This document shows positions 956 through 26,421 of a stretch of DNA of 27,796 nucleotides, one piece after another; the stretch's first letter is position 1, and each line of letters opens with the position of its first letter. The DNA comes from a bacterium (GTDB lineage: Bacteria > UBP18 > UBA7526). The translations under genes and the position numbers were made by a program. Below the pieces are notes generated by a model, which saw only the letters and a program-made list of their open reading frames with translations, was not told the DNA's origin and ran no database searches. The stretch covers positions 1 through 27,796 of the forward strand of contig JAUWYL010000018.1 of NCBI GenBank assembly GCA_030615855.1. Direction: 5' to 3'.

Positions 956-974
956 TCTCTACTCCATTTATAGG

Positions 975-1148
975 ATACGTCTATCGGTTGCGGTTGCGTA
1001 ACTCGTCACGGCTATCGTTGAGTAAAATCAAAAATGAAAAATGAAAATGGAAAATTACAATGCAAAATGTAAAATTACAAATCAAAACTCATTAATTTTG
1101 ATATTTGATCTTTAATATTTAATTTTTCAGCGCAACCCTTCAACGTAT
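975..1148. repeat. Composite intergenic inverted repeat, GGTTGCGGTTGC element
   Basis: The outer arms are ATACGT and GGTTGCGGTTGCG (975-998) facing CGCAACC and ACGTAT (1131-1148). The interior is AT-rich and carries AAAAATG 7-mers (1030-1043). The same outer arms with a different interior occur at 8306-8370. It fills the gap between the two permease genes and is probably transcribed within the operon. Confidence 0.75.
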
Positions 1149-1162
1149 AACGAAGAACGAGT

Positions 1163-2245
1163 TTATTCTTTGCTCGTCCCTGCTATTCCTTGTGCCAAGG
1201 TTTTTTTCTTCAACTTCATTATATAATCCCGGAAGGGCTTGCTGGAAGCGATAACGAAGATGATGACAATGGCCTGTAATATCTCGACCAGTTCCTTGGG
1301 AACATAGGCATTGATTATCAATCCTCCGAAACTCAATAAGCCAAACAAGAGAGCAGCCAGAATCACTCCTATGGGAGTATTCCTTCCTAAGAGGGCCACA
1401 GCAATCCCCATGAATCCCACTCCTCCGGCAAAGCCTTGCTCAAAGTAGTACTTATAGCCCATAACATAATTTACCCCTACTAAGCCCGCTAAAGCACCAG
1501 AGATGGCCATGGTGAGGATTACGCTTTTGGGAATATTTATTCCTCCATACTCACTAGCAGAAGGGCTCAAGCCCACGGCCCTCAATTCATACCCTAAGGA
1601 GGTCTTCCAGAGAATATAGTAGACAATGAAACAGGCCAAAAGAGCCAGAAAGAAACTATAATTTAAAGGAGAGCCAGAGAATTTGGGAAAGATGGTGGAA
1701 AGGCGTGGTATCCTAGCAACAAGGGCTATTGATTGGGTATGAACCGTCTCTGGCATATGGAAGTAACGAACAATGAGATAATTGGTTAGCGCCAAGGCAA
1801 TGAAGTTCATCATGATGGTGGTAATTACTTCATGGGCCCCTCTCTTTGCTTTGAGTATTCCCGGAATTCCCGCCCAGAGAGCACCACCCACCATCCCTCC
1901 TAAAATACATAATGGGATAAGGAGAAAACCAGGAAGGCCAACTAAGGTAAAGCCGAGATAGGCGGCCAGGAAGGAACCGATGTAGAGCTGTCCCTCACAA
2001 CCAATATTGAATAGTCCCGCCCGAAAGGCAAAGGCCACCGCCAGGCCAGTGAAGATTAAGGGAGTGGCCTTGAATAATACCTGGGCAATACCATAAGGAT
2101 TACCCAGGGTGCCAGAGAATAGTTTCCCATAGATGAAGATTGGATTCTGGCCGATAATCAGGATGAATATTCCTCCTACCAAAAAGGCAGCGATTACTGC
2201 CAGAAGGGGAGTGAAAATCTCCAGTAATTTCTCTCTTTTAATCAC
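1163..2245 (-). CDS. ABC transporter permease, nucleoside (BMP) type, first permease
   Basis: This 360-residue integral membrane protein of the BPD_transp_2 family resembles B. subtilis NupP. It has a cytoplasmic start, many hydrophobic helices, the conserved FNIGCEGQLYIG segment near residue 75 and a glycine-rich loop around 265-285. It pairs with the 307-residue permease as a heterodimeric channel. The start is a GTG that overlaps the TGA of the upstream HAMP gene as GTGA, so translation is probably coupled. Two different permeases plus one double ATPase and one BMP lipoprotein is the usual make-up of this transporter class. Nucleoside specificity is inferred. Confidence 0.9.
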   Translation of the reverse strand: MIKREKLLEIFTPLLAVIAAFLVGGIFILIIGQNPIFIYGKLFSGTLGNPYGIAQVLFKATPLIFTGLAVAFAFRAGLFNIGCEGQLYIGSFLAAYLGFTLVGLPGFLLIPLCILGGMVGGALWAGIPGILKAKRGAHEVITTIMMNFIALALTNYLIVRYFHMPETVHTQSIALVARIPRLSTIFPKFSGSPLNYSFFLALLACFIVYYILWKTSLGYELRAVGLSPSASEYGGINIPKSVILTMAISGALAGLVGVNYVMGYKYYFEQGFAGGVGFMGIAVALLGRNTPIGVILAALLFGLLSFGGLIINAYVPKELVEILQAIVIIFVIASSKPFRDYIMKLKKKTLAQGIAGTSKE

Positions 2246-2676
2246 TTACTCACCCTTCTCTTTAGGTTCTCTACCATTTCATTCAGGGCATCGGCCAAGG
2301 GCATAAGATCATCCCCCTTCCTCAACGTTATCCTTTCTTCAAAGTTACCCTCACTAACTTTCTTGATATAGTTCTGAATTCTACCCAGTGGACCAAATAT
2401 CTTATTGGAGGTTATGAGACTGGCAATGGTCACCAGTATCAGCCAGAGAGCCAGGATACACCCGGCAACGATATTCGCTTCCCGATAAGTATCCCACATA
2501 GCGGGATTCTCTCCAATAATAACCTTATTGGCTATTGACCAGTAGAGAGCGTACATCCCTCCCGTCAATAACGCAGCCAATAGACTGCAGACAACAGCCA
2601 CTAGGATGTACTTTGACTGGAGTCTTTTCTGGACAAAGAAGTATTGCCTTTGTTCCCCTCTCAATCGAAATTTCAT
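2242..2676 (-). CDS. Small two-helix membrane protein with HAMP domain
   Basis: This 144-residue protein has a basic N-terminus, a helix at about 24-48, a short extracytoplasmic loop, a second helix at about 68-90 and then a HAMP domain (about 91-142; GPLGRIQNYIKKVSEGNF with ALNEMVENL). It ends after HAMP with no kinase, cyclase or methyl-accepting output domain. The ATG follows GAGAGGTG. It sits between the ATPase and the first permease and overlaps the permease by 4 bases, so it is a true operon member. HAMP normally relays signals across membranes. A role in regulating or assembling the transporter is only inferred from position. Confidence 0.85.
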   Translation of the reverse strand: MKFRLRGEQRQYFFVQKRLQSKYILVAVVCSLLAALLTGGMYALYWSIANKVIIGENPAMWDTYREANIVAGCILALWLILVTIASLITSNKIFGPLGRIQNYIKKVSEGNFEERITLRKGDDLMPLADALNEMVENLKRRVSK

Positions 2677-2699
2677 CTTACACCTCTCTTCATTTAATT

Positions 2700-2751
2700 A
2701 ACATTTAACATTTAATAATGAACAATTATTACTTGCTACTTGCTACTTGCT
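2700..2751. repeat. 7-mer tandem arrays (ACATTTA x2, ACTTGCT x3)
   Basis: ACATTTA occurs twice at 2701-2714 and ACTTGCT exactly three times at 2731-2751. On the minus strand the second array encodes the last residues (ASSK) of the ABC ATPase and touches its TAA stop (2729-2731). Confidence 0.85.
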
Positions 2752-4264
2752 GAGTGGCTCCGGTCATCATGAGTCCTATCTCTTCCTCTTTTGTCTTCTT
2801 GGGGTCTACCTCTCCCACAATTCTTCCCTCATACATCACTAAGATACGATCGGATAGGGACATAACCTCTGAGAGTTCAGCAGAGACCAAGAGAACCGCC
2901 TTCCCCCTCTCCCTCTCCTCTAAGATCTTCTTGTGAATAAACTCTATAGCACCGATATCCACCCCTCGCGTAGGCTGGGAAGCAATCAAGAGCCAGGGAT
3001 GGCGGGATAATTCCCGGGCAACGATCACCTTCTGCTGATTCCCTCCAGATAGGGAACTTACCAAAAGCTCCTTATTCGCTGGTCGGATATCAAACCTCTT
3101 TATTAGATTCCGAGCATTCTCAGAGATTCTCTTGAAATTAAGTCTCAATAACCTCTTCCTCACTGGTGGTTTATAGTGATGTCCCAGGATGAGGTTATCC
3201 TCCACAGAATACTCCAGAATCAATCCTCTCTTATGTCTATCCTCAGGGATATGAGCCACCCCGGATTCAAAGATCATTCGCGGACTGGCATTGGTTACCT
3301 CTTTCCCTCCTAAGACTATCCTCCCCTTTTTCACTTTCCTTAAACCAGTTAAGACCTCAACCAGTTCTGTCTGACCATTACCTTCTACGCCTGCAATCCC
3401 CAATATCTCGCCGGCTCTTATCTCAAAGGAGACTCCTTTTAGGGTAGGAAGACCGCGATCGCTTAATGCCTCTAGGTCCTTTGCTCTTAGGACAACCTCT
3501 CCTATCTGGGAAGGACCCTTCTCTACTTTTAAAAGTACCTCTCTTCCTACCATGAAACGTGCTAGTTCTTCCTCTGTAGTCTCCTCGGTCTTCACTACCC
3601 CCACCACCCTTCCATCCCTCATTACTGTAACCCAATCGCTTATCTCCCTAACTTCCTTTAATTTATGGGTGATGAAGATGATGGTCTTCCCCTCTCTCTT
3701 TAAAGAGTGCATAATGGTGAATAGTTCCTCAACCTCCTGGGGGGTTAAGACCGCAGTTGGCTCATCCATGATGAGGATTTCTGCTCCCCGATACAAGACC
3801 TTTATGATCTCCACCCTTTGCTGTAATCCTACAGATAGATCCTGAATCTTTGCTTCGGGATCAATGATCAGACCATACCTTTTAGAGAGTCCCCTGATAT
3901 CCTGAGTGGCTTTTTTTCTATCATTAAAAATCTTTCCTCTTTTAGGCTCCCTTCCCAGAATAACATTCTCTGCCACAGTGAAGGGAGGGATGAGCATGAA
4001 GTGCTGATGAACCATCCCAATCCCCTGTTCAATGGCCACACTGGGAGAAGAGAGATCAATCTCTTTCCCCCTAATAAGGATCTGGCCCCCATCCTTCTGA
4101 TAGAGCCCATAGAGTATCTTCATAAGAGTTGACTTCCCAGCGCCATTCTCTCCCACTAAGGCATGGATCTCTCCAGAATGGACCCTAAAGTTTACGTCGT
4201 CATTGGCCACCACTCTAGGAAAGCGCTTAGTGATGTGGCGCATCTCAACCACTCTTTCAGTCAT
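2729..4264 (-). CDS. Double-domain ABC ATPase of nucleoside transporter
   Basis: This 511-residue cytoplasmic ATPase is the energy-coupling subunit of the BMP-type importer (NupO-like). The first ABC domain has Walker [10 protein letters not shown] near residue 40, signature [11 protein letters not shown] and Walker [11 protein letters not shown]. The second has the degenerate Walker [11 protein letters not shown], signature LSGGNQQKV and a Walker B ending [11 protein letters not shown], where Gln replaces the usual Glu. This asymmetry is standard for the family. ATG follows AAAGGAG. The C-terminus (QQVASSK) is encoded partly by a 7-mer repeat array. It lies 12 bases after the lipoprotein gene. 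Confidence 0.95.
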
Positions 4265-4276
4265 TACTTACTCCTT

Positions 4277-5287
4277 TTATTCTCTGGGAACCTCTATCTC
4301 TCCCGCAATGATCTGGGCTTTGAGTTCTTCCACTTTCTTTCTTACTTCATCCGGAATGAGGTCTCTGTTATTCTCATCATAGACATAGCCCACCCCATCC
4401 TCTTTCAATCCAAAAATATGAACCCCTCCCTTAAACTGGCCAGCGATGGTGTCCTTTATGGTATTATAGACTGAATTATTCACCCTCTTGACCATACTGG
4501 TCAGGATATATCCCGGGGCCTCATGGTACTGATCGGAGTCGACTCCAATGGCAAGAACCTTCTTCTCCCTTGCAGCCTCAAAGACTCCCAGGCCAGTGGA
4601 GCCCGAGGCATGATAGACGATATCCACTCCCTGTCCATACTGAGATAGAGCGATCTCTTTTCCCTTGGCTGGATTCTTGAAGGCCTCTCCCGTCACTCCG
4701 GCATAACCCACCAGGATAGTAGCCTTGGGATTCGCCCTCCTCACTCCCGCCTTATAGCCCGATTCAAACCTATGGATTAAGGGGATGTCCATCCCACCCA
4801 CAAAGCCCAGCTTATTCGTCTTGGTCAATAGCCCTGCCAGAGCTCCTACCAGATAGGAGCCCTCCTCCTCCCTGAATTTCAAAGCAGCTAAGTTAGAGGG
4901 GATCTCCCTTCCTGGCTGAACAGTGTAGTCAACACAGGCGAACTTCTTCTCTGGGAACTCTCTTGCGATGTGAGTGATGTCATCGGAGAACATAAAGCCA
5001 ATGCCGAATATCAGATCGAAGTTCTGGTAGGCGAGCATCCTCAATCCCGATTCCCTATCTGAGCCCTCTCCGGGCTCGATATATTCGTAGTATATTCCCA
5101 AATCTTCTTTCGCTTTCTCCAATCCTCGGTAGGCTGAGTCGTTGAAACTCTTATCTCCCCTTCCTCCTACATCGAAGACCAGTCCCACCCTTAAGGTAGC
5201 CTCCACCTCTTCCTCCTTCCTGGCGCAACCTAAGATCAAGGCAATTGTCAGAAGAAGGACCAAACCGATTGGAAATGTTTTTCTCAT
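4277..5287 (-). CDS. BMP-family nucleoside-binding lipoprotein
   Basis: This 336-residue substrate-binding protein belongs to the Bmp/PnrA/Med family. A lipoprotein signal peptide ends at the lipobox LILGC (Cys21), so the mature protein should be lipid-anchored and face outward. Family hallmarks are VGLVFDVGGRGDKSFNDSA after the signal, FVGGMDIPLIHRFESGY mid-protein and IGVDSDQYHEAPGYILTSM. PnrA-type members bind purine or pyrimidine nucleosides. The ATG overlaps the TGA of the upstream PLD gene and has GGGAGG inside that gene. Linkage to a 5'-nucleotidase supports nucleosides as ligand. Confidence 0.93.
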   Translation of the reverse strand: MRKTFPIGLVLLLTIALILGCARKEEEVEATLRVGLVFDVGGRGDKSFNDSAYRGLEKAKEDLGIYYEYIEPGEGSDRESGLRMLAYQNFDLIFGIGFMFSDDITHIAREFPEKKFACVDYTVQPGREIPSNLAALKFREEEGSYLVGALAGLLTKTNKLGFVGGMDIPLIHRFESGYKAGVRRANPKATILVGYAGVTGEAFKNPAKGKEIALSQYGQGVDIVYHASGSTGLGVFEAAREKKVLAIGVDSDQYHEAPGYILTSMVKRVNNSVYNTIKDTIAGQFKGGVHIFGLKEDGVGYVYDENNRDLIPDEVRKKVEELKAQIIAGEIEVPRE

Positions 5288-6102: not shown

Positions 6103-6146
6103 CGCTCTTCACTCTAACGATAGACGATTTCCGCCCTCGTCCAACT

Positions 6147-6174
6147 GATCACCGATCACAGATCACTGATCACT
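6147..6174. repeat. 7-mer tandem array GATCACN x4
   Basis: Four consecutive 7-mers (GATCACC, GATCACA, GATCACT, GATCACT) lie between the 5'-nucleotidase and PLD genes. The TGA stop of the 5'-nucleotidase gene (6170-6172) lies inside the last unit. The reverse-complement unit recurs at 17934-17947 over the trxB stop. Confidence 0.88.
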
Positions 6175-8257
6175 GTTTCTTAATCAACCACTTCCCATTC
6201 CTCCAGAGGAGATCGAACTCTCCCTGAAAGGCACGAATTAAGGAAGGGTTATCCTTAAAGAAGAACCTATCCTCTGTATAGAGGGTATTTGCCTTGCGCT
6301 CTATATTGGCACTTCCGTTGAAGAGGTATTTGCCATCCAGGATGCCGAACTTCTCGTGCATGGTCCGGAAGGTGATGCCAATCTCCTTCTCTATTTTCTC
6401 TGGATCCAGAACCTTTATTTCTATAACAGGTTTTATGCTCTTCAACTCCTCAATGAGGGGATTGATAATGGGATTTCCTTCGTCATCCTTAATAGAGGTA
6501 TCTAAGAAGAGCCTGATCTTCACCCCCCTCTGATTGGCAGCCAATAATTCCCGATACTCCCAGGTATTAGAACTGAAGATGTAAGAAACGATGTCGATGC
6601 TCTTCTCACTTCTCCTTATGAGATCGATGAGCGGCCAAGAGAGGTCTCCCGGTTTTACTACTTCCTCCCCCTTCACCGGGTCCCAGACCAAGACCTTCTT
6701 ATTACGATTTACTTCAGCATATCCCCTTTCTGGAGAAAAGAAGACCCTACTCTCTCTTTTTAGAATCTGGATCCTTCCTTCAATTCCAGGACCCTCTATC
6801 GGTGAATTCTCTCTAATATACTCCTCCTCCAGATCCCTCAATCTCTTTCCCGTATCCTTAACATTCCTCCCTTTCTTGAAGGGCTCCTCATTGTAGGCTA
6901 AATAGTTATTGGTCACCATGGAATAGGTTCTCTCAAAGTCAAGAGGCTCTCCCTTTATCTTCACCTCCAGAAGCCTCTTCTCCTCTGGATCATAGACCAG
7001 GTTCAGACCCGATACCTGGAGGATCCCTGCCCGGCCCATGCTCTCCTCCAGGATCTGCCAGATCTCTCTTCCGGAAAAATCCATAGTAACCAAGGTATTG
7101 CCGAAGGGGGAGACCTGATAGATATCTCTCTTAGTTATCTCTCCCTTTGGGATATCTTCCCTTATTCCAAAACTATTTTGAAAAGCGATATTCGTTCCGG
7201 TAAAATCTCTCATGAGATCTGCCTGCCAGTTCCCAAGATTAGACTCTCTTAGGCCTTCTGGATCCCGTCTTATCTCCTCCCGAGCCTCCCCGATTACTTC
7301 ACCCATCTCCTCTCTCACCTTAGAGGTGGCGCTCTCAACTAAGGAGGCCATTCTTTCATCCGGTGGATATTCATCTTGCCAGAGGGTGATGATCTCTCCC
7401 TTAGCCTTGAGGATCTTCTTCCTTCTCTTATCGATTACCAAATCAAGGCGGCCGAGATAAGCCCCCAGCCCCTTCGTCTGGCAGATGATGGTCTTATACT
7501 TAGGAGAGATTACCGGGGGATGAAGTTCTCTTTCATAATGGCCTCCAATGATGATATCTATCCCGGAAACACTTTCTGCCAACTGATAGTCAGTAATCTC
7601 CTCCTTCTCCTCAGGATCAAATCCTAAATGGGTAAGGGCGATGATGATGTCTGCTTTCTCCTCCAATTTCTTGAGGCACTCTTCTGCAGTAGGTATTACT
7701 TCTTTAAATCTCAAACCCTCACAGATTGAAGTGGGAGTAGTGAGCCCGAAAATTCCAAACCTTATTCCTCTTATCTCCTTAATAATATATGGTAGGGCGT
7801 ATTCTACTCTCTTTCCTGTTTTCTCATCAATGATATTGGCGCTCAGGAAAGGAAACTGGGCCATCTCTGCTAAGCGTTTTACATTCTCATTCCCCTGGTC
7901 ATAGTCATGATTCCCTATGGTTAAAGCATCGTAGCCCAGTTCATTCATTACTTTAATCATTGCTTCTCCACCAGTGAAGTCTCCCTCTGGTGTCCCCTGG
8001 AAGAAGTCCCCAGCATCTAAGAGCAGGTCGTAGCTCATCCCTTTTAAACAAGTAGCCAGAGAGGCACTCCCCCCGATCAAGGGCTTGGGATCTTTCTCTA
8101 CCCATCTTGCCTCATAGGGAAGGATCCTTCCCTGCAGGTCATTGGTATAGAGGATGCTGACTTTCTCTTTAGAGAGACCTTGATAGAAAAAATGGCCTCC
8201 AATAAGAAGGCCAATTACTACTATACTTAAGATAAGAATCTTCTTCTTAGAAACCAT
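6170..8257 (-). CDS. 5'-nucleotidase / cyclic phosphodiesterase fused to PLD-like domain
   Basis: This 695-residue extracytoplasmic protein has an N-terminal signal or anchor (6-24). A UshA/CpdB-type metallophosphatase follows: ND(40)LQG, DAGD(84)FFQG, GN(116)HDYD, LTH(210) and GGH(240)YE. The 5_nucleotid_C domain (about 335-505) has ESNLGNWQAD, NSFGIRED and VSPFGN. A C-terminal PLD-like domain (about 530-690) has a canonical HKD, HEKFGILD (634-641), then GSANIERKAN. UshA positions His43 and Gln254 are Gln42 and Glu242 here. It is first in the operon behind a promoter at 8395-8423. Expected role: hydrolysing nucleotides to nucleosides, with the PLD part perhaps cleaving polynucleotides. The final TGA lies in a repeat array. 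Confidence 0.9.
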   Translation of the reverse strand: MVSKKKILILSIVVIGLLIGGHFFYQGLSKEKVSILYTNDLQGRILPYEARWVEKDPKPLIGGSASLATCLKGMSYDLLLDAGDFFQGTPEGDFTGGEAMIKVMNELGYDALTIGNHDYDQGNENVKRLAEMAQFPFLSANIIDEKTGKRVEYALPYIIKEIRGIRFGIFGLTTPTSICEGLRFKEVIPTAEECLKKLEEKADIIIALTHLGFDPEEKEEITDYQLAESVSGIDIIIGGHYERELHPPVISPKYKTIICQTKGLGAYLGRLDLVIDKRRKKILKAKGEIITLWQDEYPPDERMASLVESATSKVREEMGEVIGEAREEIRRDPEGLRESNLGNWQADLMRDFTGTNIAFQNSFGIREDIPKGEITKRDIYQVSPFGNTLVTMDFSGREIWQILEESMGRAGILQVSGLNLVYDPEEKRLLEVKIKGEPLDFERTYSMVTNNYLAYNEEPFKKGRNVKDTGKRLRDLEEEYIRENSPIEGPGIEGRIQILKRESRVFFSPERGYAEVNRNKKVLVWDPVKGEEVVKPGDLSWPLIDLIRRSEKSIDIVSYIFSSNTWEYRELLAANQRGVKIRLFLDTSIKDDEGNPIINPLIEELKSIKPVIEIKVLDPEKIEKEIGITFRTMHEKFGILDGKYLFNGSANIERKANTLYTEDRFFFKDNPSLIRAFQGEFDLLWRNGKWLIKKQ

Positions 8258-9290: not shown

Positions 9291-9317
9291 TTCGACTTCT
9301 TTCTCTAACCAGAATAG

Positions 9318-9644
9318 GTTAACAAGTTAACAAGGATACAAGTTAACAAGATATAGGTTAGGTCAAAGGGTAACGGTAACGAAGCCCGTATCGGTAACGT
9401 TGATAGGCTAGGTAAATTTAAAGAGAATATCAGATTATCAGAGCATCAGATGGAGAAAGGCAGATATCAGAATTCAGATTAAATCTGATATTCTGGCCAT
9501 CTGAAATCTCATTCTGGTATTCTGATGTTCTGATACTCTTTTTTACGACCGCCGTAACCGTAACCGCTAAACGAAACGGGCATCGTAACCCTAACCGTAA
9601 CTGGATGTTGCCTTATTAACTTGTCAACTAATCAACTTGTCAAC
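9318..9644. repeat. Nested palindromic repeat complex between larE and larB
   Basis: This fills the gap between larE and larB. Outermost: four 8-mers of GTTAACAA type (9318-9349) face four inverted 8-mers of TTGTCAAC type (9613-9644). Next inside: GGTAAC units (9369-9398) face GTAACC/CCGTAA units (9553-9601). Next: GAATATCA-type 8-mers (9425-9448) face TCTGATAC-type units up to 9538. At the centre, about 9459-9497, is an imperfect hairpin of GATATCAG units. No gene is present. The right outer arm encodes the LarE C-terminus and stop. Confidence 0.88.
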
Positions 9645-10448
9645 TGTCTTGAGGGCTTCATCCATACTCCCGCTTCGATAGCCCTCCAGATCGAGGGCGA
9701 TATAGGTATAGCCCATTCTTTTCAATCTATTGATAACCTTTTTTCTTATATCTTTCTTCACCAGGATTTTTATTTCTCTTGGATTGACCTCAATCCTTGC
9801 CATATCTTCATGATCTCTTAAACGTACCTCTTTTAGGCCAAGACCTCTCAAGAACTCCTCACCCTTCTCTATCCTTTCTAGTCTCTTTTTGGTTATTCTC
9901 TCTCCATAGGGGATCCTGGTCGCCAGACAGGTCTGAGAAGGGCTATTCCAGGTGGAAAGTCCTAATTCCTTAGATAGCTTGCGGATCTCTTTTTTCCTCA
10001 ATCCTACCTCTGCCAAGGGACTCCTTATTTTCAATTCCCTTAAGGCCTTCTTGCCTGGACGAAAGGACCTCAGATCATCGTAGTTTGAACCATCGAGAAC
10101 AAACCGAAGACCGTTCTTTCTAGCAATTCTCTTTAATTCCTTAAAAAGTTCTTTTTTGCAGAAGTAACATCTATCAGCGGTGTTTTTAATAAAATCTTCA
10201 TTCCCGCATTCCCGGGAATGTGAGATGAGATGTTTCACCCTCAATTGCCGGGCTAACTCCTTTGCTTCCTTCACTTCATAAGAGAAGTGGATGGGTGAGG
10301 AGGAGGTCACTGCCACTACCTTATTCCTTAAGACATCAGAGGCTACCTTTAATAGGAAGGTAGAATCCACCCCACCAGAGAAAGCGATTAAAGTACTTCT
10401 CATCTCTTTCAAATTTTCTTCAAGTCTTTTTAACTTTTTATTCGCCAA
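9624..10448 (-). CDS. larE: LarE, ATP-dependent sacrificial sulfur transferase
   Basis: This 274-residue cytoplasmic enzyme adenylates the LarB product and donates sulfur to make pyridinium-3,5-bisthiocarboxylate mononucleotide. It has a PP-loop SGGVDSTFLLKVA near residue 24, a RCYFCKKELF segment near 93, and SQTCLATRIPYG, whose Cys aligns with the sacrificial Cys176 of the L. plantarum enzyme. The start is a TTG 3 bases after the mdh stop. The best ribosome site (AAGGAG) is 15 bases upstream, so the start is uncertain. The last residues (VDKLIS) and TGA are encoded by an 8-mer repeat array. Confidence 0.93.
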   Translation of the reverse strand: MANKKLKRLEENLKEMRSTLIAFSGGVDSTFLLKVASDVLRNKVVAVTSSSPIHFSYEVKEAKELARQLRVKHLISHSRECGNEDFIKNTADRCYFCKKELFKELKRIARKNGLRFVLDGSNYDDLRSFRPGKKALRELKIRSPLAEVGLRKKEIRKLSKELGLSTWNSPSQTCLATRIPYGERITKKRLERIEKGEEFLRGLGLKEVRLRDHEDMARIEVNPREIKILVKKDIRKKVINRLKRMGYTYIALDLEGYRSGSMDEALKTVDKLIS

Positions 10449-12437: not shown

Positions 12438-12513
12438 CTCCACCTCCTTTATATACAGATTTCCACAGATATTTACAGATCAACACAGATCACAGATAAT
12501 TGCGAATCTTTGA

Positions 12514-12597
12514 GAATATCAGAATATCAGAGTATCAGAATGAGAATTCAGAAATCAGATTTCAGATTTTATCTGGTATTCTAGTAATCTGATACTC
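12514..12597. repeat. GAATATCA 8-mer inverted repeat array
   Basis: GAATATCA occurs twice and GAGTATCA once at 12514-12537. They face inverted units ending TCTGATACTC at 12597. The same unit family forms an inner layer of the complex at 9318-9644. ACAGAT-type repeats also lie at about 12456-12500, upstream of the DHS-like gene. Confidence 0.85.
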
Positions 12598-12622
12598 TTT
12601 TCACTTTGCATTGCTAATTTTG

Positions 12623-12650
12623 CATTTTTCATTTTTCATTTTCCACTTTT
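12623..12650. repeat. 7-mer tandem array CATTTTT x4
   Basis: Four degenerate 7-mers (CATTTTT, CATTTTT, CATTTTC, CACTTTT) overlap the 3' end of the epimerase gene. The TGA stop (12636-12638) and the final SGK codons lie in the array. Related AAAAATG units are at 1030-1043. Confidence 0.85.
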
Positions 12651-13532
12651 AATTGTTGACCGGTAGTCTCTTATGCCCTCTTCAATGCTATATCTCGCTT
12701 CAAAGCCCAATAATTCCTTTACTCTTCTAGTATCTGCTCTTGTCTCATTCTGATAGAAGGAATAAGGGTTGTCGAAGTACTCTGGCTTGAAAGAAGTCCC
12801 CAGGACTTCGTTTAGAATCTCTATTATCCTATTAAAAGTTATGGCAACCCCCGTTCCCACATTCACAATCCCCGATTCCTTGGCCTTCACGGCCCTTATG
12901 GTAGCATCGACCACATCCTTTACATAGATAAAGTCCCGTGACTGCTCTCCATACTTGAAAATCCTCGGATTCTTATTCGCTTTCATCTGTTGGGCAAGCT
13001 GATAGATCATACTGGCCGCCTTCTTCTTATACCTTTCCCGCGGGCCATAGACATTGAAGTATCTTAAGCCTACTATCTTAATCTCATCTTTATGCCTCAT
13101 GGCCTCTTCATCCATGAGGGACTTGGACCGGGCATAGGCGTTCTGAGGGGACAATTTCTGATCCTCTCGCATGGGACAGGGACCATTCCCATAGACCCCG
13201 GCAGATGAGGCATAGACCAGAATCGCTCTTTCCTTCAGGACAAAGTCCAATACCTTCTTAAATCCCCCAAGATTGACTTCCACCATCTTTTTTCCGTCAC
13301 TAAAGGTAGTATCTGTGATTGAAGCCTGATGAAAGACGACATCCATATCCTTAAACTGGAAAAGGTTCATACTAGTAATATCATCTATTACCAAATTTCC
13401 CCTAAAGCCTGTTAGATTCTCAGTATTCCCACCTAATAGGTTATCTACTACTGTAATATCATTATCTCTCTGTAAGGTTAAAGCGAGGTTAGAACCGATG
13501 AACCCCACCCCTCCTGTGATTAGAATTTTCAT
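12636..13532 (-). CDS. NAD-dependent sugar-nucleotide epimerase, HldD-like
   Basis: This 298-residue extended short-chain dehydrogenase/reductase has the NAD motif GGVGFIG near residue 7, VYASSAGVYG with the catalytic Ser, and YARSK as the catalytic Tyr-x3-Lys. HQASITDTTFSDGKKM and RYFNVYGPRERYKKKAASM are close to ADP-L-glycero-D-manno-heptose 6-epimerase, which would indicate lipopolysaccharide heptose synthesis. UDP-glucose 4-epimerase is the alternative. The ATG at 13532 is chosen because GGAGAGGAG precedes it and MKILITGG begins the fold. A relic start with MRILIT lies 107 bases upstream. Confidence 0.85.
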   Translation of the reverse strand: MKILITGGVGFIGSNLALTLQRDNDITVVDNLLGGNTENLTGFRGNLVIDDITSMNLFQFKDMDVVFHQASITDTTFSDGKKMVEVNLGGFKKVLDFVLKERAILVYASSAGVYGNGPCPMREDQKLSPQNAYARSKSLMDEEAMRHKDEIKIVGLRYFNVYGPRERYKKKAASMIYQLAQQMKANKNPRIFKYGEQSRDFIYVKDVVDATIRAVKAKESGIVNVGTGVAITFNRIIEILNEVLGTSFKPEYFDNPYSFYQNETRADTRRVKELLGFEARYSIEEGIRDYRSTIKSGK

Positions 13533-13590
13533 TCTCACTCCTCTCCAATCAAGTTCGAACAACGCATGGAATAATGATTTAGCCTTCTTA

Positions 13591-13612
13591 AAGGAGGGAC
13601 GGGGTGAACCTC
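13591..13612. repeat. Partial GACGGGGTGAACC repeat
   Basis: GGAGGGACGGGGTGAACCTCC matches the right half of the hairpin units between ccdA and trxA (16577-16637). It lies between the relic start at 13639 and the epimerase start. The 13533-13966 gap otherwise holds promoters, the relic start and the MITE-like repeat. Confidence 0.65.
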
Positions 13613-13616
13613 CGCT

Positions 13617-13656
13617 CCCTCAGTGATTAATATCCTCATACTTTTTCTCCTTGTCC
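13617..13656 (-). pseudogene. Relic translation start of an epimerase-like gene
   Basis: On the minus strand AAGGAG lies 7 bases before an ATG at 13639 that reads MRILIT, nearly the MKILIT start of the intact epimerase at 13532. The frame then runs into the GC-rich repeat and is out of phase with the epimerase by two bases. I read it as the remnant of the old start or of a deleted paralogue. Confidence 0.4.
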
Positions 13657-13667
13657 CGTTGATAATC

Positions 13668-13696
13668 AAACTAACACAAAAGGATAGACCTGTCAA
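13668..13696 (-). promoter_or_regulatory. Candidate promoter for the epimerase
   Basis: On the minus strand a perfect TTGACA (13696-13691) is 17 bases from TAGTTT (13673-13668), a weak -10. The start of transcription would fall near 13661, just ahead of the relic start at 13639. Confidence 0.4.
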
Positions 13697-13743
13697 CCCC
13701 GATACGCAGATTTCTTTATTTTGCTTACTGCTTGGGCTTTAAA

Positions 13744-13916
13744 AAACGCTGGCACTCAACGCACTTCGTTTGCCTTGAGGCGTTAGCCTCTGATAATCTG
13801 CGGTCATTGCTTGATTTCGAGCAAAGTGAGAAACAAGGTTCTTGAGCGAAGCGAAAGGCTTCCTTATATTCATGCTCTCTCGGATGCCAGCGAAGCGCAT
13901 CCGGCATCTGCGTTTA
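13744..13916. repeat. MITE-like repeat, copy 1
   Basis: This 173-bp element shares about 40 identical bases at its left end and 51 at its right end (13866-13916) with copy 2 at 26153-26324, while the middles differ. The left end begins AAACGCTGG and the right end finishes CTGCGTTTA, forming short terminal inverted repeats. The right end contains a CGGATG...CATCCG hairpin. No coding capacity beyond short chance frames. Confidence 0.8.
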
Positions 13917-13920
13917 AGAC

Positions 13921-13949
13921 TTGACAATCTGAAGAAAGTAGTTTACAAT
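13921..13949 (+). promoter_or_regulatory. Near-consensus sigma70 promoter for the M23 peptidase gene
   Basis: TTGACA (13921-13926), a 17-base spacer and TACAAT (13944-13949) precede the ATG at 13967. Transcription would start near 13956, leaving a very short leader made essentially of the ribosome site GGAGGAG. The -35 begins 5 bases after the end of the MITE-like repeat. Confidence 0.75.
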
Positions 13950-13966
13950 TATTCTGGGAGGAGAAA

Positions 13967-17945: not shown

Positions 17946-17987
17946 TCAGGAGAAAGTGGGAAAGTGAGCAGGTGAGAAAGTGAGAAT
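17934..17987. repeat. 7-mer tandem array, GTGATC/GTGAGAA type
   Basis: AGTGATC and GGTGATC (17934-17947) are followed by degenerate AAAGTGAG-type units to 17987. The trxB TGA (17943-17945) is within the array. The first unit is the reverse complement of the array at 6147-6174. Confidence 0.75.
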
Positions 17988-17993
17988 ACTGAA

Positions 17994-18536: not shown

Positions 18537-18667
18537 GGTTTACGGTTAACGGTTTACAGTGTACGGTAAAAAAACCGCCTCTCGTCTTCACTCGAGACTG
18601 GGCGATCCTGAATGAAATGAAGGACCGTAAACGGTAAACAGCCCGAAGGGCGGGTAAACTGTTAACC
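18537..18667. repeat. Inverted 7-mer arrays, GGTTTAC unit
   Basis: Four 7-mers (GGTTTAC, GGTTAAC, GGTTTAC, AGTGTAC) at 18537-18564 face inverted units at 18624-18641 and 18654-18667. The latter two are separated by a small GC hairpin. The array fills the cobO to MTH1187 gap; no riboswitch was recognised. Confidence 0.85.
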
Positions 18668-18695
18668 AATACCTACCTGAAGGGAGGTAAATGAG

Positions 18696-19128: not shown

Positions 19129-19917
19129 TTATGGGCTCTTTTTGATGATTTTGGCTAAGATTTCTCCCATTTCTCTATGAATTTTTCCATTTGAGGCCAA
19201 GATCTCTTTTTCATAGATATCGAGTTTATCTCCTTTGAAGTCTGTTACTCTTCCACCAGCCTCGGACACTATGAGGCTTCCTGCTGCCACATCCCAGGGG
19301 GCAAGTCTCTCCTCCCAGAAGCCATCGAAGCGACCATTGGCGGTATAACAAAGGTTTAAGGCCGCTGCCCCATCCCTCCTCACCCCTTGAGAGTTTACCA
19401 TGAATTCTCTATAAATCCTGAGATATTCGTCTGCCCTCTCCCTTCTATCGTAGGGAAAGCCAGTGGCTAAAAGGCTCTTATCTAATTTATTTATCTTAGA
19501 GACAGAGATTCTCCTTCCGTTTAAAGTGGCTCCCTTCCCCTTCTCTGCCAAGAATAGTTCATCGGGAACTGGATCATAGACCACTCCTTTTATGACCTCA
19601 CCGTTTTTCTCCAAAGCGATAGAGACACAGTATCTGGGATAGCCGTGGACATAGTTCGTCGTCCCATCCAAGGGGTCAATAATCCATTTATATTGACTGC
19701 CCTTCTCTTTTATTCTTCTTTCCTCAGTCAGGATGTCATGAGAAGGATATCTTTCCTTAATGAGACTAATAATTCTCTCCTCTGCCTTCCTATCGATATC
19801 TGTAACCAGACTTACCCTACCCTTGTAATCAATCCTCTTTATCTTACCCAGGTTTTCTCTTAATATATCCCCGGCCTCTTTTGCTGCCTTAACAGCAAGC
19901 TCCCTAAAATCTTTCAT
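19129..19917 (-). CDS. Inositol monophosphatase-family phosphatase
   Basis: This 262-residue Mg-dependent phosphatase has the metal-site motifs LTEERR (about 70), DPLDGTTNYVHG (about 85-96) and WDVAAGSLIVSEAGG (about 210). Substrate may be inositol phosphate, fructose bisphosphate, NADP or histidinol phosphate; sequence alone does not decide. The ATG at 19917 is chosen because AAGGGAAGAG precedes it, while the in-frame ATG 30 bases earlier has no ribosome site. It is convergent with the thiamine-binding gene. Confidence 0.92.
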   Translation of the reverse strand: MKDFRELAVKAAKEAGDILRENLGKIKRIDYKGRVSLVTDIDRKAEERIISLIKERYPSHDILTEERRIKEKGSQYKWIIDPLDGTTNYVHGYPRYCVSIALEKNGEVIKGVVYDPVPDELFLAEKGKGATLNGRRISVSKINKLDKSLLATGFPYDRRERADEYLRIYREFMVNSQGVRRDGAAALNLCYTANGRFDGFWEERLAPWDVAAGSLIVSEAGGRVTDFKGDKLDIYEKEILASNGKIHREMGEILAKIIKKSP

Positions 19918-19978
19918 ATCTCTTCCCTTTTGTTTCTCGTCATACATTGAAAGATTACTTAATCATACGGGAATAAGG

Positions 19979-20082
19979 GTGAGTTGTGGGTTGTGAGTCG
20001 GGTTGTGGGGGTGAGGGTGTGGGATATATCCCCATCCACACAACTCATCCCCGACCCACTACTCACTACCCATCCGCACCCC
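19979..20082. repeat. Inverted 7-mer arrays, GTGRGTT unit
   Basis: GTGAGTT, GTGGGTT and GTGAGTC (19979-19999) continue into G-rich DNA and face ACCCACT, ACTCACT and ACCCATC (20054-20074). A remnant of the GGTTGCGGTTGC element (CGCAACCGAT, ACGTTCAACGTA) follows at about 20089-20112. Confidence 0.85.
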
Positions 20083-20131
20083 TATAACCGCAACCGATTG
20101 ACGTTCAACGTAATCTATTACACTACTACCT

Positions 20132-21211: not shown

Positions 21212-22329
21212 TCTACCAATTCTGAAACTAAAACAAATTCTATTCCTTGATTCTCCAGTTCTGGGATGGTCTCTTTAATTGCCTGAACAGTGAGAGAATG
21301 GGCATGGCCGATGCCTATCGCCTCTCCCTCATTCAGGGCTATTTTAGCCAGAAGCCGAATCTGCCCCTTAATGTAATCGAGATCGATCTCATTGTCTAAG
21401 AAAACATTTCTCTCCCCACACTTAAGGCCCAGTCTTTTGGCTTCTCTGTAGGCAACAGATTCGTCAGAGGTCTTACTATCTATAAAGAAGAGGTTTCTTT
21501 TCTTTAACTCTTTCAATATTAGATTCATCATCTCCTTATCCTCTGTTAAGCGGGAACCCGTATGGTTATTCACTCCCTGAACATAGGGGATACCAGAAAG
21601 ATCACGGGCAATTATCTTTGCTATCTCCCTTCGGGGAGTACTCATGAGAATGGCACCCTTTCCCGGGTCCTTATCTCGTGCCGGATATCCCTTAGGCTCC
21701 ATGGGAAGATGGAGCATGACTAAAAAGCCTTTCTTCTTCGCTTTGCTCGCTATATCTTTGGAATGGGGTAGAAAGGGGAGGATGGAGAAGTTTAAGGGAC
21801 GATCTATAGCTAAGAGTTCCTTCGTTGCCCTTCCTCCCATCCCCAGATCATCGATAATGATAGCCACCCTTGCTTTCGGTTGCTCTAAGATGAGCCTCTG
21901 AATGGGAATCTTTCTTATCCCGATTTTCATGCTCAGGATCTTCTTCCCTTTAATCTCTCCCTTCTTGACCTTGACTATCCTTCCTCCTTTTCTCTTCACT
22001 ATCTGGGTAACGGCCTTCTCATACTTCTCTAAAGGCTCCTTGGGAGATACCCTCACCCTCTTTGTAGTATGGGTCCACTCTATCTTTCCCTTCTTCTCTT
22101 TTTTACTGTACTTCTCAATAATATCCTTACGGCCTACTCCCAGTTCAGCAAGTCCCTTATCGATGGCAGAATCTATCTCCTTTGCCTTTGCCTCATAATC
22201 TATCCTCTTCAACCAGTCAAAGAGAGTTACCCTTCCCATCTGCTGATAATCAACCCAGAAGCAGGCAAAGAGAAGTCCCAGAATAGCGATTACCATTGTT
22301 ATCTTTAAAAATCTATACTTGTCAGTCAA
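21208..22329 (-). CDS. Divergent polysaccharide deacetylase (YibQ/COG2861-like)
   Basis: This 373-residue protein has an N-terminal membrane helix (about 8-26), a long basic linker and a C-terminal divergent NodB-like domain (about 150-370) with [27 protein letters not shown] and IGHAHSL. These replace the usual NodB motifs. The family is commonly beside envC and ctpA, as here, suggesting cell-wall or envelope work; its reaction is not established. The start is TTG with GAGG 6 bases before it; an in-frame ATG at residue 12 is the alternative. Confidence 0.87.
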
Positions 22330-22357
22330 CTCTAACCTCGATTCATATCTATTATTT

Positions 22358-22473
22358 GGTTACGGTTAAGGTTAGGTTGTTGGTTTAGTTGCTGGGTTAG
22401 GTAGTTGGTCTTTTTAAAAACACCTAACTCTTACCTAACTACTAAACTCACTACCTTACCCTAACCCAACTAC
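22358..22473. repeat. Inverted 8-mer arrays, GTTGGTTA-like unit
   Basis: Degenerate units such as GTTAGGTA and GTTGCTGG (22358-22410) face CTAACTAC/TACTAAAC-type units (22421-22473) around CTTTTTAAAAAC. The ctpA TAG stop (22470-22472) lies in the right arm. Confidence 0.8.
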
Positions 22474-23906
22474 TTTACTGCTTGGGCTAAGGCCTTTTTG
22501 GAGAGCTCTTCTTTAATCACTTCTACTGCCTTTTGAAACTGAGGATCCTCATCTCGGGTAATCTGATAAGCAACCTTTTCTCCCAAGCCCTGCCTTATTA
22601 TGGCAATCCTCAACTGCTTCTTAATCTCGGGGAGTCCTTCTTTCCACTCCTTCTCTTCAAGATCAAACTTCTTCTCTTTTAAGAACGAAGAAAACTCGTC
22701 CAGAGCCGCTATTCGAACCCTGAATTCCTTATTCACATCAGGATGGGTGAGGAGATACCTCTGGCTGAAACCTCTGAAGTATCCCTTGCTCGCGATCTTG
22801 GAGGCTATCTTGGGAAGGGTGGGTAATTCTACTTTGATGTCTGGTTCGATCCCCTTCTCATCGATGTTCCTTCCCTTGGGAGTGAGATAATGAGCAGTAG
22901 TAAGCCTCAAGCCCGAACCATCCTCTAAGGCCAAGACGCTCTGAACCGTTCCCTTGCCAAAGGATTTCTCTCCAATAATGGTTCCTCTCTTGTAATCCTG
23001 GATGGCACCTGCCACTATCTCAGAGGCAGAAGCACTTCCCTTATTGATGAGGATGACCAAGGGATAATCGGGATGGGGCGCCTCGCTTGAAAGGTATCTC
23101 AGGCTCTGAGAAGAAACCCTCCCTTGGGTAGAAACGATTAATTTCTTCTTGGGAAGAAATTTATCGCATATCTCTACCGCCTCATTCAAAAGCCCCCCAT
23201 GGTTATTGCGTAGATCGAGGATCAGTCCCTCCATCCCCCCCTTCTCTAACTCTCCTAAGGCCTCTTCCAAATCTTCACTCGCTTGCTTCTTGAACTCCCT
23301 GATCCTGATGCAGCCGATCTTCTCTTCTGTTAGAAAAGAATAGGGAATGCTTTTTACTATAATCACGCCTCGAACGATAGTAAATTCTAAAGGTTCATCA
23401 ATTCCTTCTCTCTCTATGGTCAGGGTAACCGAGGTCCCCCTGGGTCCTCGCATCTTCTTTACTGCATCCTGTAAGGTGATATCCTTTGTCGACTCCCCGT
23501 CTATCTCCACAATCTTATCCCCGGCCTGAATCCCGGCCTCATACGCAGGAGTCCCCTCAATAGGGGAGACAATGGTGAGCTGCCCATCCCTTATCCAGAT
23601 GCTTATCCCCAATCCCTCGAACTTCCCTTCGGTCTCAATCTGCATCTCCTTATAGGTCTCAGGGTCCATAAACTGGCTATGAGGATCCAGAGTGGCCATC
23701 ATTCCTTTCAGGGCCCCATAGATGAGGTCCTTGGTCTTCACTTCCTTTATGTAATTCTTTTCAATAAGGTAGTAAACCTTGGAGAAGAGGCCAATATACT
23801 TATGTCTCTCTTTTCTCCCGTTTACCTTACCAGATATTCCTCCCCCAACAATGAGGACTAGCACAATCGTCAAAATTAGGATTTTTATTCCATTCTTTCT
23901 TTTCAT
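22470..23906 (-). CDS. ctpA: C-terminal processing protease, S41 family
   Basis: This 478-residue exported serine protease has a signal anchor (about 7-27), an N-terminal helical region, a PDZ domain (about 95-180) and the S41 core. Catalytic Ser293 is in GSASASE and Lys318 in GEKSFGKGTVQ, 25 residues apart as in Prc. DLRNNHGGLL carries His where Pro is usual. CtpA proteases trim or degrade envelope proteins, including murein hydrolases. AAGGAGGAG precedes the ATG. The gene lies downstream of envC, a common arrangement. Its final codons overlap a repeat array. Confidence 0.94.
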   Translation of the reverse strand: MKRKNGIKILILTIVLVLIVGGGISGKVNGRKERHKYIGLFSKVYYLIEKNYIKEVKTKDLIYGALKGMMATLDPHSQFMDPETYKEMQIETEGKFEGLGISIWIRDGQLTIVSPIEGTPAYEAGIQAGDKIVEIDGESTKDITLQDAVKKMRGPRGTSVTLTIEREGIDEPLEFTIVRGVIIVKSIPYSFLTEEKIGCIRIREFKKQASEDLEEALGELEKGGMEGLILDLRNNHGGLLNEAVEICDKFLPKKKLIVSTQGRVSSQSLRYLSSEAPHPDYPLVILINKGSASASEIVAGAIQDYKRGTIIGEKSFGKGTVQSVLALEDGSGLRLTTAHYLTPKGRNIDEKGIEPDIKVELPTLPKIASKIASKGYFRGFSQRYLLTHPDVNKEFRVRIAALDEFSSFLKEKKFDLEEKEWKEGLPEIKKQLRIAIIRQGLGEKVAYQITRDEDPQFQKAVEVIKEELSKKALAQAVK

Positions 23907-23939
23907 CTTAATCTCCTCCTTCGTTTTAGTAAAATAGGT

Positions 23940-23998
23940 GGATTAGTTGGATTGGTTGGATTATAAATCAACCTAATATACTAATCCAACTAATTTCC
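23940..23998. repeat. Inverted 9-mer arrays, GGATTRGTT unit
   Basis: GGATTAGTT, GGATTGGTT and GGATTATAA (23940-23966) face ACTAATCC and AACTAATTTCC (23980-23998). It occupies the envC-ctpA gap. CTTGTCAAC units follow at 23998-24013 next to the envC stop. Confidence 0.85.
23960..23989 (-). promoter_or_regulatory. Possible ctpA promoter inside repeat array
   Basis: On the minus strand TTGGAT (23989-23984) and a perfect TATAAT (23965-23960) are 18 bases apart, both made of array units. Only the -10 is convincing. Confidence 0.3.
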
Positions 23999-24013
23999 TT
24001 GTCAACTTATTGA

Positions 24014-25303
24014 CTATTTTCTCAGCCAGTGCAGGGGATTTTCGGGTGCACCATCCTTCCTCATCTCGAAGTAGAGATAGGGTCCTTTCTTGGAGGCCGT
24101 CTGGCCCACCTTGCCGATCAATTGAACCCCTTCTACTTCCTGATTCTCTTTAACCAGGATGCTATCCAGATGGGCATAGAGGGTGTAGTAGCCCCCTCCG
24201 TGAGCGATCATGACCATCTTTCCATATTCTCTTAACCCCGGTTTCTGCGACCACTGGGCAAAGACTATTCTTCCCTTTGATACCGCCCACACCTCTTGAC
24301 CTTTCGGGGCCTTGATGTCAATCCCCTCATGAGGGGTATATGTCTTATACTGAGGATGTTGATGCTTCCCATAGCGTTTTGTTATCTGGTGGCTTATGGT
24401 CGGCCAGGGAAGGCGGCCCTTCTTCTGCCTGAAGGCCAAAGAGGCGAGCCTCGCCTGCTCTATAGTCTCCTTCTTCTTGGCTTCCAGATTTCTAATCAAG
24501 GCCTCCAGTTCCCTTGAGGCCTTCTTTAGTTTCCTAACTCTCTTCTCATAGGCCATCCTCTTTTTCTCTGTCTTGGTTAAAAGCGTTTCCTTCGCCCTCT
24601 TATTCTTCTCTATCTCAGTTTTTCTCTTTAAAGCTGCTTCTTTGTAGATAGTAATCCTTGCCTCTTTTTTCTCCAGAGACTCCTTCTCTTTTTCTCTCGC
24701 TTCTTTCCTTTCTTCATCCCCGGCTAACCGGTTAGCGTCGCAGGAGGCGATAATATTCATAGATTTCTTCTGTAGAATATTTTGGGGAAAGTCATGGGGA
24801 TAGGAGGGGCTCTTTCCCTTGTAGATAACGATCAATCTTTCTCCCAGAGTATCCCGACTAGTTTTCAGTTCCGAGGTCGCCTCTTCCAAGTCCTTTTTCT
24901 TCTTCTCTAATTGTTTCTTAGTTTTCTTTAGGTTCTCACCGTAGATAACGATCTCCTTCTTCTTGACTTCCAAATCCTTCTTGATTTTAGTAAGTCTCTT
25001 ACGAAGGTTTCTTTCTTGGATCCTCTTCTTCTCTAACTCCTTCTTCTCGGTGGCAAGTTCCTTCTTTGCTTTCGTCTTCTCCTTCTCCTTCTCTTGAATC
25101 TCCTTGTCATACTCTTTAATCTTCTCCTCATAGGTAGCGAGGGCAGGAGATAAGTTGACAAGTTGACAAGTTGACAAGAAGATAAAACAAAAAATAAGTC
25201 TCTTATAACGAGTAGCCCTTGTCCTCCGTTCATTTGGCAAAGACGAAGAAGGCACAAAAGTTGGTAATTTTGTATTGTTAATTGCTAATTTTTCATTTTG
25301 CAT
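24014..25303 (-). CDS. envC: EnvC-like murein hydrolase activator (degenerate LytM)
   Basis: This 429-residue exported protein has a signal peptide (YKRLIFCFIFLSTCQL..ALA, about 33-56), a long Lys/Glu-rich coiled coil (about 57-290) and a C-terminal LytM/M23 domain (about 315-428). HEGID (325-329) and LYAH are kept, but both His of the HxH motif are Tyr (Tyr409, Tyr411 in GPYLYFEM), as in E. coli EnvC. It should therefore activate amidases rather than cut murein, driven by FtsX next to it. The start is uncertain: the first ATG lies in repeat-like AT-rich DNA and residues 1-30 look non-native. The signal peptide contains an 8-mer array. Confidence 0.88.
   Translation of the reverse strand: MQNEKLAINNTKLPTFVPSSSLPNERRTRATRYKRLIFCFIFLSTCQLVNLSPALATYEEKIKEYDKEIQEKEKEKTKAKKELATEKKELEKKRIQERNLRKRLTKIKKDLEVKKKEIVIYGENLKKTKKQLEKKKKDLEEATSELKTSRDTLGERLIVIYKGKSPSYPHDFPQNILQKKSMNIIASCDANRLAGDEERKEAREKEKESLEKKEARITIYKEAALKRKTEIEKNKRAKETLLTKTEKKRMAYEKRVRKLKKASRELEALIRNLEAKKKETIEQARLASLAFRQKKGRLPWPTISHQITKRYGKHQHPQYKTYTPHEGIDIKAPKGQEVWAVSKGRIVFAQWSQKPGLREYGKMVMIAHGGGYYTLYAHLDSILVKENQEVEGVQLIGKVGQTASKKGPYLYFEMRKDGAPENPLHWLRK
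25153..25176 (-). repeat. 8-mer array AGTTGACA x3 inside envC signal peptide
   Basis: Three exact 8-mers span 24 bases, an in-frame length, and encode most of LSTCQLVNL in the hydrophobic core of the EnvC signal peptide. The unit is that of the outer layer at 9318-9644. Confidence 0.85.
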
Positions 25304-25310
25304 TGATTTT

Positions 25311-25350
25311 TCTACTTTTCTACTTTTCGACTTTCCTACTATCCTACTTT
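25311..25350. repeat. 8-mer tandem array, TCTACTTT x5
   Basis: Five consecutive degenerate 8-mers (TCTACTTT twice, TCGACTTT, CCTACTAT, CCTACTTT) lie between ftsX and envC, ending 4 bases from the ftsX stop. No inverted partner is seen. Confidence 0.88.
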
Positions 25351-25354
25351 TTTC

Positions 25355-26140
25355 TTACTTGATTCTTCTCCAAGAGAATAGGCTTCCCAGAAGACCAAAG
25401 ACTAAACCAGCACCTACTAAACCAAGAGCCATCTCTAAATTCATAAATGAGATGGCCTCCACTCTCAGAATTGATAAGCGGTATATTCCATATAAGATGC
25501 CCAGAGCCACTAATGAAGTGGAGAGGCCCTCCAGGATTCCCTGACCAAGGAAGCTCCCCCTTATCATCCAGATGCTCTTTCCCTTCTCCTTTAATCTTCC
25601 TATTCTCTCCCTAAGTAAGGTCAGCCTAAAGAGAAGGGAAGCGACTATTAAAAGTCCTAGGCCAAGAATGACTCCTAAGATGAGGCCAATCATCCGAAAG
25701 CGAGAAGTAGCCCTGAAGAGTTCCTCTACTCCTCTTCCCCCATAGTCCACCTCTTCTATCTCTGGATAGCCGGCTATTCTTTCTGAAATCTCTTTTATAA
25801 CTTTAATCCTCTTTTCTGTCTTAACAAGCAAGGAGGCAGGAAAGGGATTTTCCTTAAGAATATCCATCTCTTTCTCCAGGGCTTCCTCCTTCAAAAACTT
25901 CTCCAGAGCTTCCTCTTTTGAGGTATAGATTATCTCCTCCACTCCTTCCTGGATCATTATCTTACTATATAGTCCCTCTACCTCGTCTGGACTAAGGCCT
26001 TCTTTTAAGAAAGCAACTATTGCCACCTCTTCCTCCCAACCAGAGATTACTTGATCCATATTCTCTATTCCTATTAAAAAGACCCCTAGCATAATAAAAG
26101 AGATAAATAGGGTTACTATAAGTGGCCAGTTTAACTTCAC
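25355..26140 (-). CDS. ftsX: Cell-division ABC permease-like protein FtsX
   Basis: This 261-residue membrane protein has helix 1 at about 4-24, an extracytoplasmic domain (about 27-150, with EEEVAIVAFLKEGLS and PFPASLLVKTEKR) and three more helices from about 150 to 255. FtsEX signals from the divisome to EnvC and amidases outside. The chain lacks the usual 20 or so residues before helix 1. The GTG start has GGAGG 6 bases before it; the upstream ATG meets a stop after two codons. No ftsE adjoins it, and a MITE-like repeat ends 12 bases upstream. Confidence 0.88.
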   Translation of the reverse strand: MKLNWPLIVTLFISFIMLGVFLIGIENMDQVISGWEEEVAIVAFLKEGLSPDEVEGLYSKIMIQEGVEEIIYTSKEEALEKFLKEEALEKEMDILKENPFPASLLVKTEKRIKVIKEISERIAGYPEIEEVDYGGRGVEELFRATSRFRMIGLILGVILGLGLLIVASLLFRLTLLRERIGRLKEKGKSIWMIRGSFLGQGILEGLSTSLVALGILYGIYRLSILRVEAISFMNLEMALGLVGAGLVFGLLGSLFSWRRIK

Positions 26141-26152
26141 TTCATACCTCCC

Positions 26153-26324
26153 TAAACGCTGGCACTCAACGCACTTCGTTTGCCTTGAGGCGTCAGCCGC
26201 TGATATAGTACACTGATTGCCGCTGATTTTTTTATCTGCGTTTATCTGCGTTTTGATCTGCGGTTATTGCTTGATATTCATGCTCTCTCGGATGCCAGCG
26301 AAGCGCATCCGGCATCTGCGTTTA
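26153..26324. repeat. MITE-like repeat, copy 2
   Basis: This 172-bp element in the same orientation as copy 1 (13744-13916) has the same 40-base left end and 51-base right end (26274-26324). The interior differs and holds tandem TTTATCTGCG units. Ends TAAACGC / GCGTTTA are inverted. It lies directly upstream of ftsX. Confidence 0.8.
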
Positions 26325-26350
26325 GTATATCACGCCTCCGAAATAATGTC

Positions 26351-26383
26351 AAAAAAAGACGCCCCTCTTCCTGGGCGCCTTTT
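26351..26383 (-). terminator. Rho-independent terminator after TolB-like gene
   Basis: On the minus strand AAAAGGCGCCC (26383-26373) pairs with GGGCGTCTTTT (26364-26354), one G-T pair, 8-base loop, then further Ts to 26351. It separates the TolB-like gene from ftsX. Confidence 0.88.
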
Positions 26384-26421
26384 ATCCGTGCTAATCTGTT
26401 TTTTAATCCGTGCTAATCTGT
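26384..26421. repeat. Direct repeat ATCCGTGCTAATCTGT x2
   Basis: Two identical 16-mers at 26384-26399 and 26406-26421. The second contains the TAG stop (26413-26415) of the TolB-like gene and encodes its last residues. Confidence 0.85.

Follow-up and report, generated by a model that had tools for sequence, protein, structure and literature searches.

Tandem repeat arrays in the intergenic gaps of a UBA7526 bacterium as probable parts of dispersed hairpin elements

The intergenic gaps of this bacterium are probably occupied by small, non-autonomous hairpin elements that belong to several dozen families. This is our best overall explanation for the dispersed families, for their turnover between related genomes, for the nesting of elements in hairpin tips and for the occurrence of one family in other phyla; insertion directed by hairpins is the part of it that we infer. 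The window analyzed here is the whole of contig C5 (27,796 nucleotides), and its genes lie mostly on one strand, in tight runs. The parent genome (G000, 1.375 Mb, 93.6% complete) was sampled in stretches that cover 71% of it. Five relatives were found in the family (f1), of which two are congeneric, while the other sampled genomes share the domain only. Between the window's genome and the relatives compared, median protein identity is 82-91%.

Arrays in the window and across the genome

The arrays cited in a preliminary description of this DNA were located by a window scan where it had placed them, namely AAAATGA at 1024-1087, TACTTGC x3.1 at 2730-2751, ACTGATC x4.6 at 6144-6175, GTTAACAA at 9318-9350, a GGTTTAC-type array at 18537-18567, GTGAGTT x2.9 at 19979-19998 and TTTTCTAC x5.5 at 25308-25351. 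By hand count, 11 to 12 of the 16 gaps of at least 40 bp carry an array, in agreement with its statement that arrays occur in most gaps, and the recurrence of units between gaps was also borne out (GAATATCA at both 9424 and 12513). The features are listed below by position in the window, with no strand assigned.

1024-1127, AAAATG / TTAATAT inverted 7-mer hairpin (self-inverted score 36, shuffle maximum 30)
2698-2751, lone TTAACAT and TACTTGC arrays, TACTTGC within the 3' end of the neighboring gene (array scan)
6144-6175, lone GATCAC-type 7-mer array at a gene end (array scan)
9318-9645, outermost of three concentric hairpins, with GTTAACAA-type arms at 9318-9350 and 9612-9644, the right arm extending into the larE 3' end
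9365-9610, middle hairpin, family F21 (GGTTACGG...GCCCGTWTCG), tip interrupted by F12 (family alignment)
9420-9542, innermost hairpin, family F12 (AGAATATCAG units; family alignment)
12513-12600, second F12 copy, left CACAGAT 10-mer array and right TTTTGCA array (family alignment)
12598-12654, TTTTCAT/TTTTGCA 7-mer array (array scan)
17950-17986, lone GAGAAAGT 8-mer array (array scan, inverted-partner test)
18537-18680, GGTTTAC-family hairpin with GCCCGAAGGGC and an insert in the center
19964-20090, family F26 hairpin (GGGTTGTG / CCCACTACTCAC; family alignment)
22360-22474, family F18 hairpin (GGTTAGGTTGTT; family alignment)
23928-23999, hairpin of GGATTAGTTGG units with 36-nt arms, 72% complementary
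25308-25351, lone TTTTCTAC 8-mer array (array scan, inverted-partner test)
26157-26323, composite F1/F11 element (TAAACGC...GGATGCCAGCGAAGCGCATCC) with an ATCTGCG 10-mer array inside; a related copy lies at 13563-13966
26380-26424, ATCCGTGCTAATCTGT 10-mer array

Some arrays reach into genes. Those at 9612-9645 (larE) and 2730-2751 (an ABC transporter ATPase, gene 2729-4264, of which the array is the 3' end) enter gene 3' ends and alter the C-termini, and the LarE C-terminus is different in each of the four relatives compared. Another array, AAGTTGAC x3.4 at 25152-25178, lies in the 5' part of an M23 peptidase ORF (24014-25303), within a signal-peptide-like N-terminal part.

The preliminary description had foreseen two objections, that shuffled sequence might yield as many arrays and that arrays might be absent elsewhere in the genome, and neither was borne out. 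Arrays of period 6-8 (TRF score of at least 30) were found in 114 of 305 gaps in 589 kb sampled, compared with a mean of 3.7 gaps (maximum 5) in dinucleotide shuffles and with 6 arrays in coding chunks, used as a control. Extending the sample to 976 kb and the period to 6-10, arrays were found in 233 of 494 gaps. Overall, degenerate 7-, 8- or 10-bp tandem arrays are present in approximately half of the gaps, roughly 30-fold over shuffled sequence. The autocorrelation of intergenic DNA has maxima at lag 7 (z 26) and lag 8 (z 15), followed by 14, 21 and 10; the favored periods are 7, 8 and 10 bp and their multiples, and periods of 6, 9 and 11 bp are nearly absent.

Two further statements in the preliminary description held in part. 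Many arrays were said to have an inverted partner, and for 118 of 226 the partner score within the same gap exceeds all 10 shuffles (20.5 arrays expected); about half stand alone, including those at 2698, 6144, 17950 and 25308. The units were also described as locus-specific, which is not quite the case, as they fall into families spread genome-wide.

Dispersed families, nesting and turnover

In an all-against-all comparison of gaps, 44% of intergenic bases matched another gap at E<=1e-5, compared with none in shuffles. Copies of families F12, F18, F21 and F26 align over their full length between unrelated gaps at 74-95% identity, and their ends are sharp. Because copies align end to end and flanks are unrelated, the arrays are parts of dispersed elements of approximately 100-150 bp. 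In elements of the array type, degenerate units of 7, 8 or 10 bp make up two arms that run in opposite orientations. Units would then recur between gaps through the copying of elements, and not through each gap coining a word for itself.

The preliminary description had proposed an active process that copies short units and inverts them, perhaps by replication slippage with strand switching. Activity, fast turnover and the likeness to STRR and REP-type repeats were upheld, but copying and inversion in place was not retained as the main mechanism, since the end-to-end alignment and sharp ends of family copies point to dispersal of whole elements. In its fuller form this explanation has slippage making the arrays of each gap and template switching at quasi-palindromes at the replication fork copying units to the other arm. 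It would account for the discrete unit variants common to both arms, for the half of the arrays that are partnerless and for the failure to find a transposase. We nevertheless consider it unlikely given the homologous copies across unrelated gaps, the presence of the same element in other phyla and the exchange of whole cassettes at orthologous sites. As the source of the elements, local generation is largely refuted by the full-length paralogues, yet it may still shape the arms: a retained orthologous array differs between two species by one 16-bp double unit (L199:8839 versus L134:18949), a sign of slippage superimposed on dispersal.

The gap at 9291-9623 consists of three concentric element families, and similar nesting was collected genome-wide as interruption events, in which one copy is broken relative to an intact copy. 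The 82 events gave 77 usable insertion points, which, under a position-matched null, had a mean depth percentile of 0.62 versus 0.5 (p 3e-4), with 44% in the deepest quartile of the host hairpin. F12 and F26 have each inserted in the F21 tip, at a near-identical site in different gaps. There is a clear but moderate insertion preference for hairpin tips, a bias that would be expected both from tolerance of tip insertions and from targeting. A separate observation is a 20-bp micro-palindrome, CCTGTCTGCCGACAGGCAGG, within the F18 copy at L168:3109; similar micro-palindromes are present in other elements.

Comparison of relatives, in place of the strain comparison suggested in the preliminary description, showed that array turnover is fast. 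For the genome's own arrays, alignment with the orthologous gap succeeded in 5 of 29 cases in G002 (median protein identity 91%), 4 of 22 in G001 and 2 of 27 in G003, so that more than 80% are unalignable in the orthologous gaps of congeners, a turnover measured between species. These gaps usually hold another family or none. The larE-larB gap is an example, with three nested families in the window, a CGAAAT hairpin in G001, a CAGTTAGA hairpin in G005 and no such array in G003. At L195:1500 and L154:12882, shared outer GTTGACAAG arms enclose different centers.

Arrays are less frequent in divergent gaps (9 of 36) than in co-directional ones (213 of 431; p 0.005), a deficit that is expected if arrays are tolerated where promoters are rare. 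The co-directional bias, together with stable folds and frequent proximity to stop codons, could also reflect regulatory hairpins in transcripts (terminators, mRNA stabilizers or arrays of binding sites) maintained by selection. We regard this as very unlikely considering the speed of turnover, stems nearly devoid of compensatory change and the lack of any match to Rfam within the window. When stem pairs were counted in two families, they proved mainly invariant and compensatory change was almost nil, leaving the idea of an RNA function unsupported. In our view, no host function needs to be invoked to explain the arrays. Distinct from the arrays, a GC-rich structured intergenic segment (GGTCCTGCCTCGGCATTCTC...GGTGTGGATCCTCC) without an Rfam match recurs at L186:1744-2010, L186:6688-6967 and in L197.

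Mobilizer search and insertion chemistry

A REP-type mobilizer, and with it a RAYT-like transposase, had been suggested at the outset. The RAYT version of this suggestion failed: the RAYT/IS200 model PF01797, which was positive in 5 of 14 control genomes, had no match in G000 (93.6% complete), G001, G002 or G003. Reverse transcriptase (PF00078), TnpB (PF07282), DDE_Tnp_1 (PF01609) and rve (PF00665) were likewise absent from G000, G001 and G002, and G003 has one broken rve fragment with a stop. No multicopy ORF was found in the 71% of the genome sampled.

At the junctions of the array families, which range from apparent overlap to apparent gap and have no fixed size, no target duplication recurs consistently. 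F15, a palindromic family that lacks arrays (CCCCGCACC...GGTGCGGGG, approximately 47-112 bp), differs in this respect: 13 of 23 copies, versus 18% by chance, have 4-bp target duplications (TTCA/TGAA/TCAA/TTGA). Copies are found at L142:3292, L147:1115, L164:1260 and L203:3386, among others. F15 is a classical MITE with no parent in sight. A REP-like palindrome, TCCATCCTCCG...CGGAGGACGGG, has inserted cleanly, with neither duplication nor loss of the target (L161:14842, L164:10294, L179:17045). Since F15 duplicates its target and this palindrome does not, at least two insertion chemistries have been at work.

The F15 duplications imply that a transposase did act here, and they speak for the proposal that the elements are classical MITEs of an insertion sequence now lost from the genome. 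The array families do share with MITEs their short length, non-autonomy and terminal inverted repeats, the arms being inverted end to end. Their lack of a consistent target duplication and of a parent element, with none of the five transposase or reverse transcriptase models matching in the genus, argues against the proposal, as does their preference for hairpin tips. A lost parent would have to be assumed separately for dozens of unrelated families, and we judge this origin improbable.

We prefer hairpin-directed insertion or copying. An element copy would enter single-stranded or extruded hairpin DNA, and either an enzyme supplied from elsewhere (in trans) or template switching by the replication machinery would insert it. 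The sites used would be mostly harmless ones, namely gaps flanked by co-directional genes and the tips of elements already present, and slippage and exchange among equivalent units would later reshuffle the arms. Several results weigh against the overall explanation: the unsuccessful search for a mobilizer, the inconsistent junctions of the array families, the moderate size of the tip preference and the near absence of compensatory change in the stems of two families.

Spread to other phyla and relation to known repeats

The CGAAAT hairpin was matched in 32 of 290 genomes. Of these, 26 lie outside the family, where E reaches 5e-30, whereas a reversed query that preserves its periodicity gave marginal matches only, in 2 of 290 genomes. 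In other phyla the identity is 73-80% across most of the length; the strongest matches in far genomes span 138-146 of 154 bases (76-79% identity), and several further matches are partial or marginal. Copies in these genomes are mainly intergenic. The 7-mer units form a small set (AAATCCK, AAATTCK, AAATACK, AAGCACK, AATATCK and AAACTCK) whose three variable positions are strongly correlated (1.36 bits versus 0.48 in shuffles), and the far genomes carry this same discrete variant set. GTTTAC arrays accompany the hairpin in 5 of the 7 far genomes that have such arrays (p 8e-5). For a non-coding element to stay recognizable over most of its length across phyla is very unusual, and repeated horizontal spread is therefore indicated. 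No match to the CGAAAT element was found in phages, plasmids or IMG/VR as a possible vector. A GGTTTAC-type array is present in the viral contig IMGVR_UViG_3300038466_000067 (L264:716-743).

F12 and the F1/F11 composite are restricted to the family, save for marginal short matches elsewhere. Inverted-array hairpins built from other words occur in Candidatus Wallbacteria (L066), Candidatus Tritonobacter (L056) and bacterium BMS3Abin06 (L045). Tentatively, these elements may belong to a phylum-spanning class of inverted-array hairpins that draw their unit variants from a common alphabet and spread by tip targeting without the known mobilizers of small elements.

REPINs are REP doublets that form hairpins [PMC3116915], and REP sequences carry GTAG or CGTC end tags [PMC3733652]. 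Like REPINs, the elements described here are intergenic, high-copy, hairpin-forming inverted pairs, non-autonomous and dispersed within the genome. REPINs are tied to RAYT transposases, none of which was found here, and our elements differ further in that their arms are degenerate 7-, 8- or 10-bp tandem arrays, in dozens of families nested in each other's tips. Heptamer arrays are known as GGGNATC in Nostoc and Xanthomonas [PMC4692102] and as a TAACTGA repeat in Beggiatoaceae, Cyanobacteria and Bacteroidetes, which are distant phyla, with no mechanism known and one inverted case among 170 sets [PMC4679880]. The resemblance to STRR and heptamer arrays lies in the intergenic 7-bp tandem arrays (64 period-7 rows, in addition to the lag-7 maximum) and, for TAACTGA, in the occurrence in distant phyla. 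Those are direct arrays of a single word, whereas here the arrays form the arms of inverted hairpins in many families, about half of those scored having a partner.

The cyanobacterial small dispersed repeats of Elhai et al. (2008) are reportedly very small mobile palindromes, intergenic and with nested insertion. Relative to those repeats, the present elements would be set apart by their array arms and by the one element found across phyla; we file the window elements with the small dispersed repeats, as a variant. The element class and its mobilizer appear to be undescribed in the literature searched, which omits most subscription journals and in which no paper contains any of six diagnostic words. 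Specialists reading such genomes have probably already noticed the array words.

Nearly half of the intergenic DNA in this family consists of recurrent hairpin elements whose mover was not identified, and their turnover outpaces a protein sequence divergence of approximately 10%. Nested tips provide the relative order of insertion and orthologous gaps provide a clock; the spread of small repeats without a RAYT, an old question, therefore becomes testable. If the phylum-spanning reading is true, the intergenic DNA of many uncultured bacteria would be a rapidly overwritten stack of elements.
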